Shown here: positions 7,433 through 61,803 of the stretch, piece after piece
Layout of the letters: each line of letters begins with the position of its first letter
Numbering within the stretch: position 1 is the first letter of the stretch
Source of the DNA: Alphaproteobacteria bacterium 65-37
Lineage (GTDB): Bacteria; Pseudomonadota; Alphaproteobacteria; Reyranellales; Reyranellaceae
Assembly (NCBI GenBank): GCA_001897995.1
Contig: MKRV01000210.1
Coordinates: 1-64,000 of the forward strand
DNA length: 64,000 nucleotides
Direction of reading: 5' to 3'
The notes under the pieces: generated by a model
What the model was told of the DNA's origin: nothing
Seen by the model: only the letters and a program-made list of their open reading frames with translations
Databases searched by the model: none
Made by a program: the position numbers and the translations under genes

Positions 7433-7862
7433 TTTTCGTCTCCCGCGTTGCTTCTTCAACGCAGGCATATTCGCGCTATCGCCGTCCACAGGCGAGCCGC
7501 CAATAATAGCTGCCTCAACCGCCCCAGACCCTCCAAGCCCGATTACCGCGGCATTCCAATTCGAGCGTTCAAAGTCTATCCCGCGCTACGATATTTCTCT
7601 CCTCCGAAACCGTGCTGCGCCCGACAGCGGACCTGCAATTCCTCCGCACGCCGATTATTCAACACTGGTCAGTCAACGGCCGCCGAACCGTCGTGCGCCC
7701 GTTGCAAAACGTGCGCTCAGCCAGCGAGGCGGATGACAATCGGACGGCATTTTGTATGCCGCCCACCGCACGATTTACTGATTTGGGGATGTCGGTTTCA
7801 CTTCCGCTCCTCACCCAATAGCGTCATTCTGACGGACATCTCGGCACCTCGCATTTGTGTCA
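7433..7862. other. 430 bp without a recognisable gene
   Basis: Short frames exist on both strands but none resembles a protein family that I recognise. No repeat, terminator or RNA structure stood out. It lies between an IS110 relic and a truncated regulator and may be scrambled leftover sequence. Confidence 0.5.
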
Positions 7863-50942: not shown

Positions 50943-51884
50943 TCATTGCGCAGTTCTCGCAGCAAGTTCCGCCAGTATTTCCGGCCCATCGCTCCCTAGG
51001 GTCCCCATGGGTCGATGGATCATGGGCGGGGTGCCCTGCAAGCGCAGGGGGCTTGCCAAGAGTGGCCAGACTTGGCCCGTGGCATCCCGTGCGTGGATCA
51101 CAAGGCGGCGCGCGCAGGTCTGCTGCGCCTGCAGCATCTCTGCGGCCGAGAGGATGGGCGCAGTGCGGCAGCCGGCCTCAGAGAGAGCGGCGGCAAGCGC
51201 CGCCCGCGTCATGCCCCGGGCGCGTTCGCGAGTTAAGCCTGCTGGCAGCATGTCCTTGTCCGCCATGCCGTCCGCCTCGACCAGCACGAATCCGTCCCTT
51301 GCGGGAACGGCGATGGACATCGGTGCTGCTTGCTCGCCGTTCCATAGAATTGCCGAGAGCCAGGCGCAGACGTCCTGCATGGAAAGGTCGATGAACTGGC
51401 CGAGCCCGGTCCGGTCACGTGCCTCCAGAGCGGCAAGAATCGAGACTACTGCAATCTCGGCCCCCATCACGTCGGCGATGGAGATGCCAGCTTTCACCGG
51501 CACGTCGCCGGCTCGTGTCAGATCCATGAAGCCCGACATGGCCTGAATGACAGTGTCGAAGGCCGGCCGCCCGGGATAGATCGTGTCCGCGCCGAAGCCT
51601 GAAACGGCACAGTAGATGAGGCGCGGATTGATGCGTGCCAGCTGCTCGCTGGAGCAACCCCGCTTGGCGAGGGCGCCCGGCTTCAGGTTCTCGATCAGCA
51701 CGTCGGATCGCCCGACGAGATTCTTCAGGGTCTCGACGTCGGGCGGACGCTCGAGATCCAGGACAAGGCTGCGTTTGCCGACGTTGGTGTACGTGAAGAA
51801 ATAGCCGGTGCCATCCTTGATCGGCGGCCAACCTCGGACTGGCTCGCCCTCACGCGGCTCGATCTTGATCACGTCGGCGCCGAT
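50943..51884 (-). pseudogene. Family III CoA-transferase, 5'-truncated
   Basis: The frame matches CaiB/BaiF proteins from GADVIKIEPREGEPVRGWPP through PAFDTVIQAMSGF (catalytic Asp region) to the end, but the first 30 or so residues (the normal LDLTRVLAGP start) are missing. In their place, frame-open but unrelated codons lead to 51977. The remaining C-terminal domain is also short for the family. Immediately upstream on the same strand stands an enoyl-CoA hydratase cut off at its 3' side, so one deletion probably removed both ends. Confidence 0.8.
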
Positions 51885-51966
51885 CGACGTCTGCCTGTTC
51901 GGGCCGATACGCTTCCTTGGACGCAGGAACTGATCGAGTGGGCGGGCCGCTTCGTGGGCAGCGGCT

Positions 51967-52263
51967 CGGTTTGGCAAGACGCTCGACCGCGTTGTTCAGC
52001 GTCTCCCAATGCGTCATATAGGGGACGCCATCCGCAGTGGACTTGATTGCCATGGCTTCGTTGAGGTCCGCCCCCGCGGAGAAATATCGCGGACCTCCGG
52101 TGACAATCACGCCGCGCACCGACGGATTCTCGTCCGCGCTGGCACAAGCCGTCGCGATCTCCTGCATCATCCTGACGCTGAAGGCGTTGCGTCGGTCCGG
52201 CCGGTTCAGCGTGATGACAAAGGACGCGCCGTCCTGGCTTGTGAGGATGGTTTCGAACGCCAT
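51967..52263 (-). pseudogene. Enoyl-CoA hydratase, N-terminal fragment
   Basis: About 99 codons from ATG 52263 match crotonase-family proteins: VITLNRPDRRNAFS, then RYFSAGADLNEA (the oxyanion loop) and LNNAVERLAKP. The family continues with a second oxyanion loop and the catalytic Glu region, which are lost. The frame runs on into unrelated codons to 51850. Confidence 0.8.
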
Positions 52264-52369
52264 TTGCGACAACCTTCCGATGGTTCGCAGTTGACAAATG
52301 CGGGGATCGGGCATGCTGGCACAAGCAGAGGCGCCTGGTCGCCCGCTTGAACCGCGCCCCAACCTCACA

Positions 52370-52389
52370 TCAACCAAACGCAGGGTCAA
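52370..52389. promoter_or_regulatory. Degenerate copy of the 46.5-kb operator
   Basis: TCAACCAAACGCAGGGTCAA matches the site at 46534-46553 except for three bases in the right arm. It lies 107 bp upstream of the hydratase fragment start, a normal place for a TetR site. Confidence 0.5.
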
Positions 52390-52853: not shown

Positions 52854-53765
52854 CTAACCGAGTCCCAGCTTGGGACGCACCCAGGAGGCCAGCTTTCCGA
52901 TGGCGTCGTCGGCCTCCGGCGCGACGCCCGCCAGGAAGTGGAAGACGTGCTGCATGTCGGGATAGACGTCGACGGTGACATCGACCCCCGCCTTGCGCGC
53001 CCTCTCGGCGAACCGTTGGCTGTCGTCGAGCAGCGTCTCGTCGCCGCCGACCTGGATGTAGACCGGTGGCAAGCCCTTCAAGTCGGCATAGAGCGGACTG
53101 GCCAACGGGTCCTTCGGGTTCCCGCCCTCGCCCAGGAACGTGCCGGCCATCACCTTGATGATGTCGCGCGACACCAGCACGTCCTTCTCGGCATTGCTGT
53201 CAAAGCTCTTGCCGGTCGCCTCCATGTCGACCCACGGCGACAACGGCATGGTTGCAACCGGCATCGGCAAGCCGCGCTCGCGCGCCCGCAGCAGCGTCGT
53301 GATCGCAAGCCCACCACCGGCCGAATCGCCGGTGAGCGCAATGTGCTGCGGCTTGACGCCCTGATCGAGCAGCCAGCGATAGCTGGTCACCACGTCGTCG
53401 ACTGGCCCCGGATGCACGTGCTCCGGGGCGCGGCCGTAATGTACAATCAGCGCGCGGCAGCCGATCACCTTGGCGAAATTCCCGTACACCTTGCGATGCG
53501 TGTACATCGAGCCGGTGACGTAGCCGCCGCCGTGAGTGCAGAGCAGCACGCGGTCTTGCACGCAGCCCTTCGGCGTCGCCCACAGCGCGGGCACGCCGCC
53601 GGCCGTCACCTCGACATAGTCAACGCCGCCAGGCTCGGCAGTGACGTCGCCCCAGTGCTCGAACATGCGGCGCATCTGGTCGAGCTCCATGGACGGGTTG
53701 GCGGCGAGCGCGGCCACCCAGCCCTTGTAGAGCGTCTTGAGCTCCTCCGACTGTACGCTCGGCAT
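52854..53765 (-). CDS. Alpha/beta hydrolase of the hormone-sensitive-lipase family, second
   Basis: The 303-residue esterase has HGGG (78-81), a GRAPEH box in place of RLAPEH, nucleophile S148 in GDSAGG, and DMQHVFH with the catalytic His. It starts 11 bases after the luciferase-like monooxygenase stop, with GAGGGCGAG as ribosome site. The pair repeats the monooxygenase-plus-esterase theme of the BVMO operon: the flavin enzyme could form an ester or lactone and this enzyme cut it. Expression should depend on the sigma-54 promoter upstream. Confidence 0.92.
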   Translation of the reverse strand: MPSVQSEELKTLYKGWVAALAANPSMELDQMRRMFEHWGDVTAEPGGVDYVEVTAGGVPALWATPKGCVQDRVLLCTHGGGYVTGSMYTHRKVYGNFAKVIGCRALIVHYGRAPEHVHPGPVDDVVTSYRWLLDQGVKPQHIALTGDSAGGGLAITTLLRARERGLPMPVATMPLSPWVDMEATGKSFDSNAEKDVLVSRDIIKVMAGTFLGEGGNPKDPLASPLYADLKGLPPVYIQVGGDETLLDDSQRFAERARKAGVDVTVDVYPDMQHVFHFLAGVAPEADDAIGKLASWVRPKLGLG

Positions 53766-53776
53766 CTCGCCCTCCC

Positions 53777-55177
53777 TCACTCGGCCGCCGCGCGCTGCGC
53801 CGCCGGCGCGCCGACATAGTCGATGCCGACGCTCGGCAGCTCCACCTTGCCGCCGCACTCGCGGGCGATGACCGGCATCACTTCCTCGGCAAAGAGCTGC
53901 ATCTGGTCCTCGATCTCACGGCCCTCGAAGCCGCCGAGCTCGAACCATGCGAGGAACGAGAAGTCCTCGTAACCGCACTCGGTCTTCATCTTCATGATCT
54001 TGTCGATCACGAACTGCTTGGAGCCCTGGATCGCAATCTCGCGCTCGCGCAGCATGTCGGCCGTGACGCGCTTGTTGAGGTCGAACATCGGCTCGTTGAG
54101 CCGCGCCACCACGGCGCCGAAGCCGAACGGGCCGTAGTAGTCGAATTGCAGCTCCATGGCGCGCGCCGCTCGCTCGAGCGCCTGCTTCTCCTTGCCCGGG
54201 GTGGTGATGTGGATGTAGCGGCTGGTCATGATGCCACGCCGCTTGGCAGCGTCCCAACCGTACTTGAAGCGGCCGCGCCCGTGCATGTCCGGCCAGCCGG
54301 CCTTCTCGGCCGCCTCATAGTAGATATCGATGTTCTTGCGCAGACGGTCGTTGGGCTCGACGATCATCACGCCGTTCAGTCCCTTCTCAGCCGCCCACTT
54401 GATCGAGCGCGAACTGGTCACCGGCTCCCAGAGCTGCGGATGCGGCTTCTGAACCGGTTGCGGAAAGACCTGCAGCTCCTTCAAGGTCGTGGTCGTTGCC
54501 TGCACGGGATTGCCTGCGGAGTACATGTCGGGCTCGCCGATCGCCACGACGTCCTCGAGTGCGCGACCGGCCTTCTCCATGCCGAAATAGGCCAGGGTCT
54601 GCTTGTGGTTCCACTTGGTGTAGGTCGGCGGCACCGAGAAGTTCTCGCCATGATGGGAGAAGGAGTCCTCCGTCCAGCACTTCTTCATCACCGCGATGAC
54701 TTCCTCGAAGGCCTTGCGGTTGCGTTCCTGGTCCTGGATGGTCGAGCCGTAGGGGCGTCCCAGCGTCTCGTTCTCACGCGGCTGATAGCCGCGACCGACA
54801 CCGCACTCGACCCGACCGCCGCTGATCACGTCCAGGAGTGCGACCTGCTCGGCGAGCCGCACCGGATGATGCCAGACCACGATGTTGGCGCACTGGCCGA
54901 GGCGGATCTTCTTGGTGTGCGTGGCGATCGCCATCTGCGTCATCAGCGGATTGGGACTCATCTCCGCGCCTTCGGGCTGGAAGTGATGCTCGGTCAGCCA
55001 GAAGGACTGGAAGCCCAGCCGCTCGGCAAGAATGCCCTGGCGCACTTGATTCACAAGCGTCTCCTGGGCTGCCCGATGGACTTCCTTGAGCGAGCCGTCG
55101 TTCACCGCCACGCCGTCCTTGGTCAAGGTCACCGGCAGGGTCGAAGCACCGTTGTGGAAGACTCCGATCTCCAGCAT
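53777..55177 (-). CDS. Luciferase-like (LLM) flavin-dependent monooxygenase
   Basis: The 466-residue protein has the bacterial-luciferase TIM-barrel pattern: ERLGFQSFWLTEHHFQP, RLGQCANIVVWHHPVRLAEQVALLDVISGGRVECGVGRGY. It is about 100 residues longer than typical members, with a C-terminal extension. Some LLM enzymes are type II Baeyer-Villiger monooxygenases that use reduced flavin from a separate reductase; no reductase is adjacent. It is the first gene behind the sigma-54 promoter and is followed by an esterase. Confidence 0.9.
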   Translation of the reverse strand: MLEIGVFHNGASTLPVTLTKDGVAVNDGSLKEVHRAAQETLVNQVRQGILAERLGFQSFWLTEHHFQPEGAEMSPNPLMTQMAIATHTKKIRLGQCANIVVWHHPVRLAEQVALLDVISGGRVECGVGRGYQPRENETLGRPYGSTIQDQERNRKAFEEVIAVMKKCWTEDSFSHHGENFSVPPTYTKWNHKQTLAYFGMEKAGRALEDVVAIGEPDMYSAGNPVQATTTTLKELQVFPQPVQKPHPQLWEPVTSSRSIKWAAEKGLNGVMIVEPNDRLRKNIDIYYEAAEKAGWPDMHGRGRFKYGWDAAKRRGIMTSRYIHITTPGKEKQALERAARAMELQFDYYGPFGFGAVVARLNEPMFDLNKRVTADMLREREIAIQGSKQFVIDKIMKMKTECGYEDFSFLAWFELGGFEGREIEDQMQLFAEEVMPVIARECGGKVELPSVGIDYVGAPAAQRAAAE

Positions 55178-55236
55178 GTCCTAATCTCCTGTTTGCGTTT
55201 CCTTCCATGCCGCACGCGGCATGACCGCTGGAGCGC

Positions 55237-55251
55237 AACTAGCGTGCCAGA
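55237..55251 (-). promoter_or_regulatory. Sigma-54 promoter of the LLM-esterase operon
   Basis: On the minus strand TGGCACG-CTAG-TTGC matches the -24/-12 consensus exactly (GG and GC with correct spacing). Transcription would start about 12 bases further, near 55225, leaving a leader of about 48 bases before the ATG at 55177. The divergent gene encodes a sigma-54 activator. Confidence 0.85.
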
Positions 55252-55301
55252 AGGAAAATCACGGCACGGCAAGGACTTGCCGGATGGCATGCATGGCAGC
55301 T

Positions 55302-55318
55302 TGATGCGCAGCGCTACA
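55302..55318. promoter_or_regulatory. Activator binding site 1 (UAS)
   Basis: TGATGCG-CAG-CGCTACA, an imperfect inverted repeat, about 50 bp upstream of the -24 box. It differs from site 2 at one arm position and in the 3-base spacer. Confidence 0.7.
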
Positions 55319-55334
55319 CATCCTGCGCGGCGAC

Positions 55335-55351
55335 TGTTGCGAAACGCTACA
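55335..55351. promoter_or_regulatory. Activator binding site 2 (UAS)
   Basis: TGTTGCG-AAA-CGCTACA, exactly 33 bp (three helical turns) from site 1, so both dimers face the same side of the DNA. This is the usual arrangement for AcoR/NtrC-type activators. Confidence 0.7.
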
Positions 55352-55502
55352 GCGCACTCGATTTACAGGGTCGCAATCGGGCGCCTATCCTTTCGGCAAG
55401 CAAGCTGCCTCCTCGATCGTCGATCCCCGCGTCGAGCATCTCGTCACGAAGAGCCGAAGCGGTGCGCCGCGATCGGCGGCAGCCCTTGGGAGGAGCTTGG
55501 TG

Positions 55503-57440
55503 ATGAAAGATATCCCGCTCGCTCAGCTGTGCTCCAAGGACTACATCCGGACCGTCCGCAGGGTCTGGGAAAGGTTCGTCACCGACCGCCCGGTCGACGA
55601 CGATGCCGTGCGCGATGTCGTCATCGAGTCGTGGCGCCGCTGCCGGCAGAACGGCGTCAATCCGGCGACCAAATCGGCGCCACTGCGGGTCAACGGTCCT
55701 GACGTCGACCGCTTCCAGCGGCGCAACGCGCCGTTCTACGACGCGGTGCGCGCGTGCGTGCCGCCGATCGTTCCCTATCTCATGGGTTCGCGCACCATCC
55801 TGATCACCAGCGATCCCGACGGCACCCTGCTGTCGGTCGACGGCGATCCGCATCTCACCGACCGGCTCGCCGCTGACCACATCGTTCCGGGCGCCGCGTG
55901 GCACGAGTGCAGCAGCGGCACCAATGCGGTGGGCACGGCGCTGGCGCTGGGGAAGGCGCTGCACATCCATGCCGAGGAGCACTTCTGTGAAGTCGCCAAG
56001 CCCTGGAGCTGCACCGCCGCGGTGATCCGCGATCCACTAGACCGTCGCATCGTCGGCGTGGTCGATATCACCGGGCCGCCCGACACGGTCAACGCGCAGA
56101 CCTGGCCGTTCGTCATGTCGCTGGTCGGCCAGCTGCAGGGCCACTTGCAGAAGCACGCGCTGGCCAAGCGGGCGCGGCTGATTGAGCTGTTTGAAGCCGC
56201 AATTGGCGGGCGTGAGACCGCTGCCGTCCTGCTCGACGCGCAGGGCCGCGTGATCGCGCGCACGGTGCAGGCCTCCTCGGCATTGCGCGAGCACGGCCTC
56301 AGCCGGACGCAAGCGATGGGCGAACTTGTCGCGGCACCGCGCGGAGAGGTCGCGCCGAAATGGCTGGCATCGCTGGCGCCGGGAATCCGGCCGGAATGGC
56401 TGTCCCCGCTCAGGGAGAATGGGCATTGCATCGGCGCCATCCTACATTTGCCTACGACCGGTCGCGGACAGCGCACGAGGTCGCACCGCACGGAGGCAGA
56501 GGAGCCGCTGGCGCCAGCTTTCCAAGCGCTGCTCCAGACATCACCATCGCTCGAGAGCCTTCTGCGGCAGGCCGAGCGTTTCGCCGCAGCGAGCACACCG
56601 TTGCTGCTCGAGGGGGAGACCGGCACCGGCAAGGATGTGCTGGCGCGTGCCGTGCACGCGGCGGGTCCTTTCCAGTCGGGTCCTTTCGTGCCTGTCAATT
56701 GCGCTGCCTTGCCGCGCGATATCCTGGCAAGCGAGCTGTTCGGCCACGCCGAAGGAGCTTTTACCGGCGCGCGCCGTGGCGGCTCCCGCGGCCGTTTCGA
56801 GCAGGCCCATGGCGGCGTGCTGTTCCTCGACGAGATCGGCGATATGCCCTGCGACCTGCAGCCCTATCTGCTGCGCGCCCTGGAGGAAGGCGCTGTGTGG
56901 CGGCTCGGCGAGGCGGCGCCGCGCAGGATCGCGATGCGAGTCATTGCCGCCACCAATCGTCCTCTTGCCAAGGACATGGCGGCCGGGCGCTTCCGCGCCG
57001 ACCTCTATCATCGTCTCAACGTCACTTGCCTGAGCTTGCCGCCACTGCGCGAACGGACAGGCGACATTCCGCATCTTGTCGGGCATATGCTGCGCGACAT
57101 CGCTGGTGCGGCGTCTGCGACACGGATCGCACCGGAGGTCATGGATGTCTTCCTGCGCTACCGTTGGCCTGGTAACGTACGCGAGTTGCGCAATTGTTTG
57201 CAGCGCATGGTTCTGCTGGCGACGGACCCTATACTCAGCCTCGATCTTCTGCCGACGGCAATTCTGGAGGATGAGTCGCCGTGCGGCTTACCCCTCGCCT
57301 CGACGATCCGCGGCGCCGAGCGACAGATGGTGCTAGCCGCCATTCGGCGCGAGGGCGGGAACCTCAGCCGCGCCGCTCGATCGCTAGGTATCGCTCGAAC
57401 GACGCTCTATCGGCACATCCGTCGCTGCAGTACCGATTGA
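55503..57440 (+). CDS. Sigma-54-dependent activator, AcoR-like (GAF-AAA-Fis)
   Basis: The 645-residue protein has an N-terminal sensory region with a GAF domain (about 75-225; WHECSSGTNAVGTAL is typical of AcoR/MimR relatives), a sigma-54 interaction AAA domain with Walker A GETGTGKD (371-378), the sigma-54-contacting GAFTGA (418-423) and Walker B FLDE (441-444), and a Fis-type HTH at 617-640. The effector is probably a small ketone, alcohol or acid. ATG 55503 has GGGAGGAG upstream. It should activate the divergent LLM-esterase operon and may repress its own gene, since the sites lie between them. Confidence 0.93.
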   Translation: MKDIPLAQLCSKDYIRTVRRVWERFVTDRPVDDDAVRDVVIESWRRCRQNGVNPATKSAPLRVNGPDVDRFQRRNAPFYDAVRACVPPIVPYLMGSRTILITSDPDGTLLSVDGDPHLTDRLAADHIVPGAAWHECSSGTNAVGTALALGKALHIHAEEHFCEVAKPWSCTAAVIRDPLDRRIVGVVDITGPPDTVNAQTWPFVMSLVGQLQGHLQKHALAKRARLIELFEAAIGGRETAAVLLDAQGRVIARTVQASSALREHGLSRTQAMGELVAAPRGEVAPKWLASLAPGIRPEWLSPLRENGHCIGAILHLPTTGRGQRTRSHRTEAEEPLAPAFQALLQTSPSLESLLRQAERFAAASTPLLLEGETGTGKDVLARAVHAAGPFQSGPFVPVNCAALPRDILASELFGHAEGAFTGARRGGSRGRFEQAHGGVLFLDEIGDMPCDLQPYLLRALEEGAVWRLGEAAPRRIAMRVIAATNRPLAKDMAAGRFRADLYHRLNVTCLSLPPLRERTGDIPHLVGHMLRDIAGAASATRIAPEVMDVFLRYRWPGNVRELRNCLQRMVLLATDPILSLDLLPTAILEDESPCGLPLASTIRGAERQMVLAAIRREGGNLSRAARSLGIARTTLYRHIRRCSTD

Positions 57441-58012: not shown

Positions 58013-59656
<1,644 letters not shown>

Positions 59657-59712: not shown

Positions 59713-60734
59713 TCATTCGACTGCCTGCTTTTCCTGAACGGCGGCCGGGCTGTCTGTCCCTGTCAAATCCGTCAGCAGCGGCAGAACCTCGGCGGCGACG
59801 CGCTCGATCTGCGCCTGACGCAGCTCATACGGTCCCAGCAAGTCGAGCACGATGTGCCGCACGCCGGCGGCATAGAAGGCACGCATGCACTCGGCAACGT
59901 TGGCCGCCGGGCCGAGGGCACAGTAGCGTTGCGCCGCCTTGCGGAAATCCATGGCGTAGCGAACGCTTAGTGTCTCGGACGCCGCGTCGAGCGCCTTCTC
60001 GTATGTGTCGTCCAGCCGCGTGAACAGCAGATGGCCCGTGCCGAAGCGGGCAAGCTTGCGCCCAGCGGCTGTCGCAGCCATCGCAATCACATCGAGGCTG
60101 CTTCGGTACATCTCCGGTGTTAACACGTACGACATCCAGCCATCGGCCAAGCGGCCCTGCGCTTCAGCGCTCCTTCCGATCGTCCGCCGCACCAGATCGG
60201 CGGGCCTCCCGATTGCCGCGGGGGTGGTTGCATCTGAACTTCGCTGAAGGTGCTGAACCTTCCCTGATGCGTGACCGGCTCGCCAGTCCAGAGCTTGCGC
60301 AGTACCACGATCCCTTCGCTGAGCCGCGCGCCGCGCTCCCGAATTGGTGCGCCGGCCAGAGCGTATTCCTTAGGGAACTCGCCGCCGACACCAACGCCAA
60401 AGATGAGGCGCCCCTCGGTCAGATGGTCGAGGGTCGCAACCTGCTTGGCCACCGGCCCCGCGTGCCGCAGTGGCAGTAGATAGACCGATGTCCCAAACAG
60501 CAGCCGCCGGCTGACGACGGCAGCCTGAGCAAGCTGTAGCAGCGGATCAAGGATGGGGATGGCGAAGGCGATGTGATCGCCAACCCACAGCGAGTCGAAG
60601 CCGCTTCGGTCCACGAGTTGCACCAGCGAGACCAGTTCGTCGATGCGTGGAAGCCATGGGCCAGTCGCAGGTTCGGTGCGACGGTGGATGGTCTGGATGC
60701 CGATTCGTAGGCGAGCATCGAGTGGCAGTGGCAT
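59713..60734 (-). pseudogene. LLM-class flavin-dependent oxidoreductase, frameshifted
   Basis: The frame from ATG 60734 encodes the LLM start (RIGIQTIHRR, FDSLWVGDHIAFAIP, GRLIFGVGVGGEFPKEYALAG) up to IWCGGRSEGALKR. The match then continues one frame over as GRLADGWMSYVLTPEMY to the end at 59713. The shift lies near 60150-60160. Both parts are well conserved, so the gene is either freshly broken or misread; joined, it gives about 340 residues of the F420/FMN-dependent type. Confidence 0.78.
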
Positions 60735-60759
60735 GGACGTCTTCCCCGAGGACCGGAAC

Positions 60760-61803
60760 TCAAGTGGTGGCAAAGCCCTGGAAGGCATGCGGTATCCGGC
60801 GGATGTCGGCGACGAGCTCGCGCACCAGTCCGGGCTCTGTTCCCGGTGCCAAGTTCAGCTCGATAGCGTCAGCCACTCCACCGAAACGGGTTTCGATGGC
60901 AGGCACGATCTCGTCGTAAGTGCCGCAGGCCGCAAAGATGCGCACAACGTCGTCCGAGACAAGTGCCGCCATTTCCTTCCAGCGGCCCTGGACCGAGAGA
61001 TCGTGCAGCTTCATCCCGAGATCCTGGAGCCCATGCAGCTCCAGGATGGGCATATAGGTACGCGTGGAACCGTAGAAGGCGATGCGGAAGCGCACCCAGT
61101 CCATGGCTTTCGCCACCGACGCGGCGTCCGGCCCGGTCGCGACGAAGCCGCCGCCATGCACGTTGAAATGCTCGCGCTTGCGGCCGCTGCGGCGCATGCC
61201 CTCCACCAGGCGCGGCATGCACACTTCCTCAAGATAGCGCCGCGAGCAGATCGGGTGCAGCCGCACACCGTCGGCGACCTCACCGGCCACCCGCAACATT
61301 GCCGGCCCAACCGCTGCAATTGTCACCGGGACCATCGGCAGGCCGGTGGGCTCGGGCGAAAAATCCGGGGTCATCAGCGTGAGCCGATAGTGCTCGCCCT
61401 CGTAACGCAGCTCTTCGCCAGTCTGCCAACAGCGCCAGATCGCGCGCAGCGCTCGAACATAGTCGCGCAGACGCGGTGCCGGCGGGCTCCAAGGAACGCC
61501 GAAGCGGCGTTCATTGTGGCCTTTCACCTGGCTGCCCAGGCCGAGCACGAAGCGGCCTGTTGAATTGGCGTGCAGGTCCCAAGCCTGCATTGCTGTCACC
61601 GCCGGACTGCGCGGAAAGGCGACTGCGACAGACGTCGTAAGCGCGAGCCGTTTGGTCGCAAGCGCCGCGACGGCGAGCGGCAAGAATGGGTCATGCTTCG
61701 CCTCCACCGTCATGAGCGCGTCGAACCCAGCCGTCTCCGCCGCTCGCGCTGCCGATCCGGTCTGATTCCAGTCGTTCACCGGCAGCATCGTAAACACCTG
61801 CAT
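60760..61803 (-). CDS. LLM-class flavin-dependent oxidoreductase
   Basis: The 347-residue TIM-barrel protein has FDALMTVEAKHDPFLPL, RLALTTSVAVAFPRSPAVTAMQAWDLHANSTGRFVLGLGSQVKGH and RLHPICS near the flavin pocket. It is like the F420-dependent group common in mycobacteria and some Proteobacteria; which flavin it uses cannot be told. ATG 61803 starts the conserved part. It stands 36 bases after the NPD gene and 26 before the frameshifted LLM gene. Confidence 0.88.
   Translation of the reverse strand: MQVFTMLPVNDWNQTGSAARAAETAGFDALMTVEAKHDPFLPLAVAALATKRLALTTSVAVAFPRSPAVTAMQAWDLHANSTGRFVLGLGSQVKGHNERRFGVPWSPPAPRLRDYVRALRAIWRCWQTGEELRYEGEHYRLTLMTPDFSPEPTGLPMVPVTIAAVGPAMLRVAGEVADGVRLHPICSRRYLEEVCMPRLVEGMRRSGRKREHFNVHGGGFVATGPDAASVAKAMDWVRFRIAFYGSTRTYMPILELHGLQDLGMKLHDLSVQGRWKEMAALVSDDVVRIFAACGTYDEIVPAIETRFGGVADAIELNLAPGTEPGLVRELVADIRRIPHAFQGFATT

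Follow-up and report, generated by a model that had tools for sequence, protein, structure and literature searches.

By what switch are the genes for a luciferase-like flavin monooxygenase and an adjoining esterase turned on in a soil bacterium of the Reyranellaceae, and what chemistry might the two enzymes serve? The question is raised by a 64-kb stretch of DNA from Alphaproteobacteria bacterium 65-37 (64,000 nucleotides, hereafter the window), in which the intergenic region 55178-55502 lies between the divergent monooxygenase-esterase operon on the minus strand and the gene for an enhancer-binding protein (EBP) on the plus strand. The first gene of the putatively controlled operon (53777..55177, minus strand) encodes the 466-aa luciferase-like monooxygenase (LLM), here called LLM1, as indicated by its PF00296 score of 145.7 bits, by its orthologues, and by a predicted fold matching FMN-type LLM enzymes. 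The second gene (52854..53765, minus strand) encodes an esterase with a PF07859 score of 186.7 bits and with HGGG and GDSAG motifs in its translation; the Abhydrolase_3 fold with HGGG and GxSAG places it in the hormone-sensitive-lipase type. Its likely start is the ATG at 53765, 11 nt past the LLM1 stop, because, within the longer open reading frame, alignments with homologues start at residue 32. Reading the sequence as a whole, we propose that the operon very probably has a dedicated local sigma-54 switch, a degree of confidence that concerns the regulatory circuit, the chemistry being a separate matter.

The regulator, the promoter box, and the paired palindromes

The EBP gene (55503..57440, plus strand) encodes a protein of 645 aa with a GAF-type sensor region, a sigma-54 AAA+ domain (PF00158, 201.9 bits), and a Fis-type HTH (PF02954, 38.3 bits). 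Its Walker A motif GETGTGKD, its GAFTGA motif, and the motif LFLDEIGD are all invariant across its orthologues, so the divergent activator with intact GAFTGA and Walker motifs described in the first-pass annotation is indeed present. The AAA+ domain with Walker A/B and GAFTGA, together with a Fis-type HTH and conserved predicted enhancer sites nearby, makes the protein a member of the sigma-54 EBPs, and the N-terminal GAF-type sensor region before the AAA+ and HTH parts is the arrangement of the AcoR/DhaR/AcxR type. Residues 35-279 match the sensor region of DhaR by sequence (E=1.2e-11); a GAF domain scores above its cut-off in an orthologue (locus L025) and a paralogue (locus L160), and below it in the window EBP itself. 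Compared with the curated EBP equivalogs, the protein is a member of none, all scores lying far below the cut-offs (281 versus 551 for the NCBIfam DhaR family), and its structure model, with a pLDDT of 55, is too poor for use. The host genome has only four EBPs; outside the AAA+/HTH part, the window EBP alone among them gives a match. Of the four homologues found to be next-nearest, three (L137, L138, and L139; ~37-42% identity) adjoin acetone-carboxylase-like genes, whose identity was judged from sequence and from the known gene arrangement (PMC2864759) rather than by a family scan. The earlier label “AcoR-like” suits the domain architecture (GAF, AAA+, Fis HTH), but the neighbourhoods of these homologues are AcxR-like. 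We rejected the EBP as a regulator of acetone carboxylase (AcxR proper), since no acx genes adjoin it and its predicted target is the LLM-esterase pair.

A sigma-70-like promoter for the EBP gene, TTTACA-N18-TATCCT (55362..55391, plus strand), is the only match of its kind in the region, where 0.1 would be expected after shuffling, and the same hexamers and spacer recur at loci L014, L020, and L027. On the minus strand, the intergenic region yields no match of this sigma-70-like kind. What faces the operon is a -24/-12 sigma-54 box, TGGCACGCTAGTTGCG (55249-55234, minus strand), whose core TGGCACGCTAGTTGC (TGGCACG-N4-TTGC) is matched with 0 mismatches and is the sole exact match in the window. 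The first-pass annotation called this promoter “exact”, which is true of the core and slightly generous for the whole, because the final position is G where the consensus TTGCW has A or T. Transcription is predicted to start near 55223, giving a leader of ~46 nt, and the host genome has a single rpoN gene. Across the genome, TGGCAC-N5-TTGC has 18 matches against 16 for the reversed control; in other words, the -24/-12 pattern shows no genome-wide enrichment and is uninformative by itself. Its weight must therefore come from conservation and context, for which comparative evidence is needed. The GG-N10-GC core with TGGCAC and TTGC, conserved upstream of the operon, places the box among sigma-54 promoters.

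Behind the box are the two near-identical palindromes that had been noticed from the start, and they stand as originally described, with starts 33 bp apart: a promoter-proximal putative activator site at 55302-55318, TGATGCGCAGCGCTACA on the plus strand and TGTAGCGCTGCGCATCA on the minus strand, and a promoter-distal one at 55335-55351, TGTTGCGAAACGCTACA on the plus strand and TGTAGCGTTTCGCAACA on the minus strand. On the operon strand both 17-mers are TGT-N11-(A/T)CA quasi-palindromes, with arms complementary at 6/7 and 5/7 positions. The relaxed motif TGTWGCGNNNCGCWWCA, with at most one mismatch, occurs in the 64-kb window at these two places only (shuffled expectation, 0.16 matches). In the 7.15-Mb genome, the strict motif TGTWGCGNNNCGCWACA has one match with 0 mismatches, the distal site, and occurs with one mismatch at three places, the proximal site being among them. 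Two one-mismatch palindromes were considered as further targets and found unconvincing: that at 92-108 of contig C14 lies near the contig edge and a masked stretch, and that on C272 lies within a reading frame.

Conservation and co-divergence of the regulator and its sites

Reyranella-like genomes, Enhydrobacter, Vineibacter, several Acetobacteraceae, and other Alphaproteobacteria have orthologues of LLM1; Enhydrobacter aerosaccus ATCC 27094 and Vineibacter terrae are carriers of the locus. Where the divergent EBP stands beside LLM1, its identity is 89-99% within the Reyranella/Enhydrobacter group, 66% in Vineibacter (L020), and 48% at L025; ten other LLM1 orthologue loci lack it. LLM1 and a close EBP orthologue (at least 67% identity) occur in the same six of 193 genomes. 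The strict palindrome is present at the LLM1-EBP locus in all six, and anywhere at all in seven of the 187 others; the hypergeometric p for this co-occurrence of palindrome and EBP is 2.6e-8, a nominal value that ignores relatedness, and three of the six EBP-bearing genomes are near-identical at the locus, so that few independent lineages are represented. A separate LLM search in 385 genomes of the class gave no match besides the window's own genome, which says that the gene is rare and nothing more.

A GG-N10-GC box is present at every EBP-bearing locus (L014, L017, L020, L025, and L027, and by context also L160 and L161), and that of L025 is the exact consensus, final T included. The ten EBP-less LLM1 loci, over 450 bp each (347 bp at L018), have no comparable arrangement of box plus sites; what comes closest is a three-mismatch box, unaccompanied by sites, at the actinobacterial locus L029. 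The proximal 17-mer is identical in L014 and L027 and degenerate in L020, whose distal site is better preserved. Thus, when related regions are scanned, as the first-pass annotation had advised, the palindromes and the box are kept where the EBP is present, with letters changed where its recognition helix has changed. The loss of the palindromes from orthologous regions, named there as evidence against the module, is not seen at EBP-bearing loci; it occurs where the EBP, too, is missing. In the Vineibacter locus L020, an apparent inverted-repeat insertion (~7628-7755) lies between the EBP start and the predicted enhancer sites; with its ends GCATTCGCATATG... and ...CATATGCGAATGC, it resembles a miniature transposable element.

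The geometry is also well kept. The centre of the distal site lies 108 bp from the C of the -12 element in the window, L027, and L020, and 106 bp from it in L025; for the proximal site, the distances are 75 bp in the window and L027, 77 bp in L020, and 76 bp in L025, with a spacing between sites of 30-33 bp across these loci. The sites of L025 read CGTGTCA-AAC-TGAGACA and CGTCTCA-GGT-TGAGACG. The recognition helix IARTTLYR goes with TGTAGCG sites, and ISRATLYR (L025, L160, and L161) goes with (T/C)GTCTCA. Loci L160 and L161 are Vineibacter paralogue loci, whose EBPs are 53% identical to that of the window and which have a sigma-54 box in between; their sites are TGTCTCA-N3-TGCAACA (L160) and TGTCTCA-N3-TGCGACA (L161), at a distance of 96 bp from the promoter, about one helical turn shorter. 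A second site follows 33 bp on in L161, and the second site of L160 is poor; this and the degenerate proximal site of L020 are the weak points of the series. It should be mentioned that the L160 and L161 sites were searched for after L025 had suggested the motif, and that the loci are few. The loci thus share a TGT-N11-ACA frame, within which the inner letters vary with the EBP helix. Such co-divergence fits a regulator-site pair, and should not be expected from chance or from an unrelated regulator.

Two other readings of the region bear on this proposal. The box and the palindromes might be chance matches in GC-rich sequence, with the operon read from an ordinary sigma-70 promoter. The near-equality of the box count and its reversed control is what such a reading would predict, but box and sites are conserved at all EBP-bearing loci and absent elsewhere, the minus strand of the region offers no sigma-70-like match, and any such pair of similar palindromes arises in Markov-simulated 325-bp regions with p ~0.001; we therefore regard chance as very improbable. 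It is also improbable, to a lesser degree, that the palindromes are the sites of some other regulator, or serve mainly for autoregulation of the EBP, rather than being enhancers of the LLM operon. The better preservation of the distal site in L020 would agree with this, as would the position of that site, which ends 10 bp before the -35 hexamer of the conserved promoter of the EBP gene; this nearness makes autoregulation possible in addition to operon control. Against it, the distance from site to box is constant within 2 bp across four lineages, loci without the EBP have no such sites, the letters of the sites shift together with the recognition helix of the EBP, and another regulator would need to have the same distribution as the EBP. 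The proposal of a sigma-54 control module with activator sites facing the LLM-esterase operon, made in the first-pass annotation from the window alone, is thus supported by conservation, by co-occurrence with the EBP, and by co-divergence, all of which are observed here, as are the parts themselves.

The LLM-esterase pair and its possible chemistry

The esterase gene lies downstream of LLM1 in all EBP-bearing loci and in most EBP-less loci, so that the enzymes form a wider unit and the EBP switch belongs to some lineages. The structure model of LLM1 (pLDDT 78) has Foldseek matches to luciferases, RslO1, SfnG, and 3,6-diketocamphane monooxygenase, with a target-normalised TM of 0.77-0.80 to the last and equally to luciferases; its identity to enzymes of known chemistry is only ~18-20%. 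F420 dependence was considered and found unlikely (TIGR03619, 108 bits against a cut-off of 166.9; no CofD). The lack of a CofD match in the host genome (91% complete) and the presence there of three flavin reductases make FMN the likelier cofactor.

The neighbourhood of the pair shows several further features. Downstream of the EBP, close relatives differ: the window has one acyl-CoA ligase in the segment 57441-59656, and Enhydrobacter has in the same place (L027:1335-5442) a ligase, an SDR-like gene, and two enoyl-CoA-hydratase-like genes. With 893 bits against 822, the window ligase (58016-59656) passes the NCBIfam cut-off of 3-(methylthio)propionyl-CoA ligase, though it passes the one for a general long-chain ligase subfamily as well. 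A second LLM gene, LLM2 (59713-60788), is broken into two frames, of 222 and 159 aa, by a single-base difference near 60156; because an intact 358-aa frame is present in the near-identical loci L016 and L017, the split is a recent frameshift or an assembly error in the window. On the other side, an enoyl-CoA-hydratase-like frame of 179 aa only (51850-52389) overlaps a CoA-transferase frame and looks truncated or frameshifted.

Related gene sets occur elsewhere. Vineibacter has a second module (L160:3214-7755 and L161:5624-10193), in which an EBP gene is divergent to an esterase gene (74-76% identical), followed by an LLM gene; here the esterase comes first, and the LLM is of another subgroup, with 27% identity to LLM1. 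A plasmid of Rhodococcus sp. USK10 (L165:6001-13161) carries an LLM1 homologue (42%), an esterase (48%), two CoA-transferase genes, and an acyl-CoA ligase.

The chemistry that we prefer, with slightly less than even confidence, is an FMN-dependent oxidation of a ketone to an ester, of the Baeyer-Villiger type, after which the esterase would hydrolyse the ester to an alcohol and an acid; the substrate may be a methyl ketone or some larger ketone that bears an acetyl side chain. Such a possible ketone or alcohol oxidation, as suggested in the first-pass annotation, is consistent with the match to the type II Baeyer-Villiger/luciferase fold, with the tight pairing of LLM and esterase, and with the inducers of this EBP class. 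It is, however, a substantial possibility that the circuit is as proposed and the chemistry another, the LLM being a hydroxylase or a C-S or aldehyde monooxygenase, and the esterase acting first to free its substrate from an ester. Along with Baeyer-Villiger enzymes, RslO1, luciferases, and SfnG are among the best fold matches, the paralogous Vineibacter module has its esterase first and an LLM of a different subgroup, and there is a precedent in SfnR, a sigma-54 EBP that controls an LLM for dimethylsulfone (PMC8234197). On the other hand, no sulfur-metabolism genes were seen beside LLM1, EBP homologues at ~40% identity adjoin acetone carboxylase genes, and carboxylic-acid products fit the CoA-ligase and CoA-transferase genes that lie nearby, both in the window and in Rhodococcus. 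Baeyer-Villiger oxidation followed by ester hydrolysis is plausible and remains our preferred reading. More speculatively, and with rather more doubt, these loci may represent a recurrent, portable catabolic module of a GAF-type EBP, a sigma-54 promoter, a hormone-sensitive-lipase-type esterase, and an exchangeable LLM, in which regulator and sites would have changed specificity together and which would remove acyl side chains from ketones by these two steps.

A proposed switch and its closest known systems

As we picture the switch, the EBP would be made from its own sigma-70-type promoter, and its dimers would bind the two TGT-N11-ACA enhancer sites, identified by their conservation, which lie about three helical turns apart, with centres near -87 and -120 relative to the predicted start. 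A small molecule would then bind the GAF-type sensor region, and the AAA+ domain would oligomerise and use ATP to open the sigma-54 RNA polymerase waiting at the -24/-12 box, a step suggested by the GAFTGA and Walker motifs, the box, and rpoN. Transcription would run through the monooxygenase and esterase genes, the pair being most likely switched on in the presence of its substrate, and LLM1 would receive reduced FMN from a reductase encoded elsewhere. For EBP binding, ligand sensing, oligomerisation, and ATP-driven opening, this picture draws on established knowledge of the activator class.

Several described systems resemble parts of this locus. In the AcxR-acxABC system for acetone carboxylase in Xanthobacter and Cupriavidus, a GAFTGA EBP lies beside its target operon with an intergenic sigma-54 box (PMC2864759). 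The layout here is the same, with the EBP adjoining its target and the box between them, but the target is an LLM monooxygenase with an esterase, and the EBPs share only ~40% identity. AcoR and DhaR (acetoin and dihydroxyacetone) have the same domain order as the window EBP, and its residues 35-279 match the DhaR sensor region; unlike in those systems, there are no acetoin or dihydroxyacetone genes at this locus, and the DhaR score is far under the cut-off. In SfnR-sfnFG (dimethylsulfone, Pseudomonas putida), a sigma-54 EBP controls an FMN-dependent LLM monooxygenase (PMC8234197, refs 16 and 29), which is also the predicted kind of target here. LLM1, however, falls outside SfnG, scoring 58 bits where the cut-off is 383, and its partner is an esterase. 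SfnR is not known to have a sensor domain.

In the pdc cluster of Caenibius tardaugens, the LLM EGO55_13860 acts as a Baeyer-Villiger enzyme of type II and converts progesterone to testosterone acetate; no flavin reductase is assigned beside it, the next step needs an esterase that has not been identified, and the regulators of the cluster are of the TetR and LuxR types (PMC12239570). The present locus resembles that cluster in joining an LLM with an esterase step, and differs from it in having a sigma-54 EBP. As for the sites, EBPs such as NifA, FhlA, and many of the Clostridiales commonly have TGT-N10-12-ACA sites, several per promoter, and one adjacent target, with a usual enhancer-site distance of 100-250 bp in the study concerned (PMC6615313). 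The 17-bp TGT-N11-ACA sites here, two per promoter and upstream of a single adjacent target, follow the same pattern, but their inner letters AGCG...CGCW are specific to the window EBP, and their centres, 75 and 108 bp from the -12 C, lie at or below the lower end of that range.

A search of the open-licence literature found no paper describing control of the LLM-esterase operon. The regulatory logic is of an ordinary, well-known kind, but its target is an unstudied monooxygenase-esterase pair, for which the locus offers a predicted inducible promoter together with its regulator and enhancers. The sites and recognition helices of its relatives vary naturally, and this series could serve to decipher the recognition code of Fis-type HTH activators. 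Should the preferred chemistry prove right, the pair would also supply the kind of esterase step that has been reported as unidentified in progesterone degradation.
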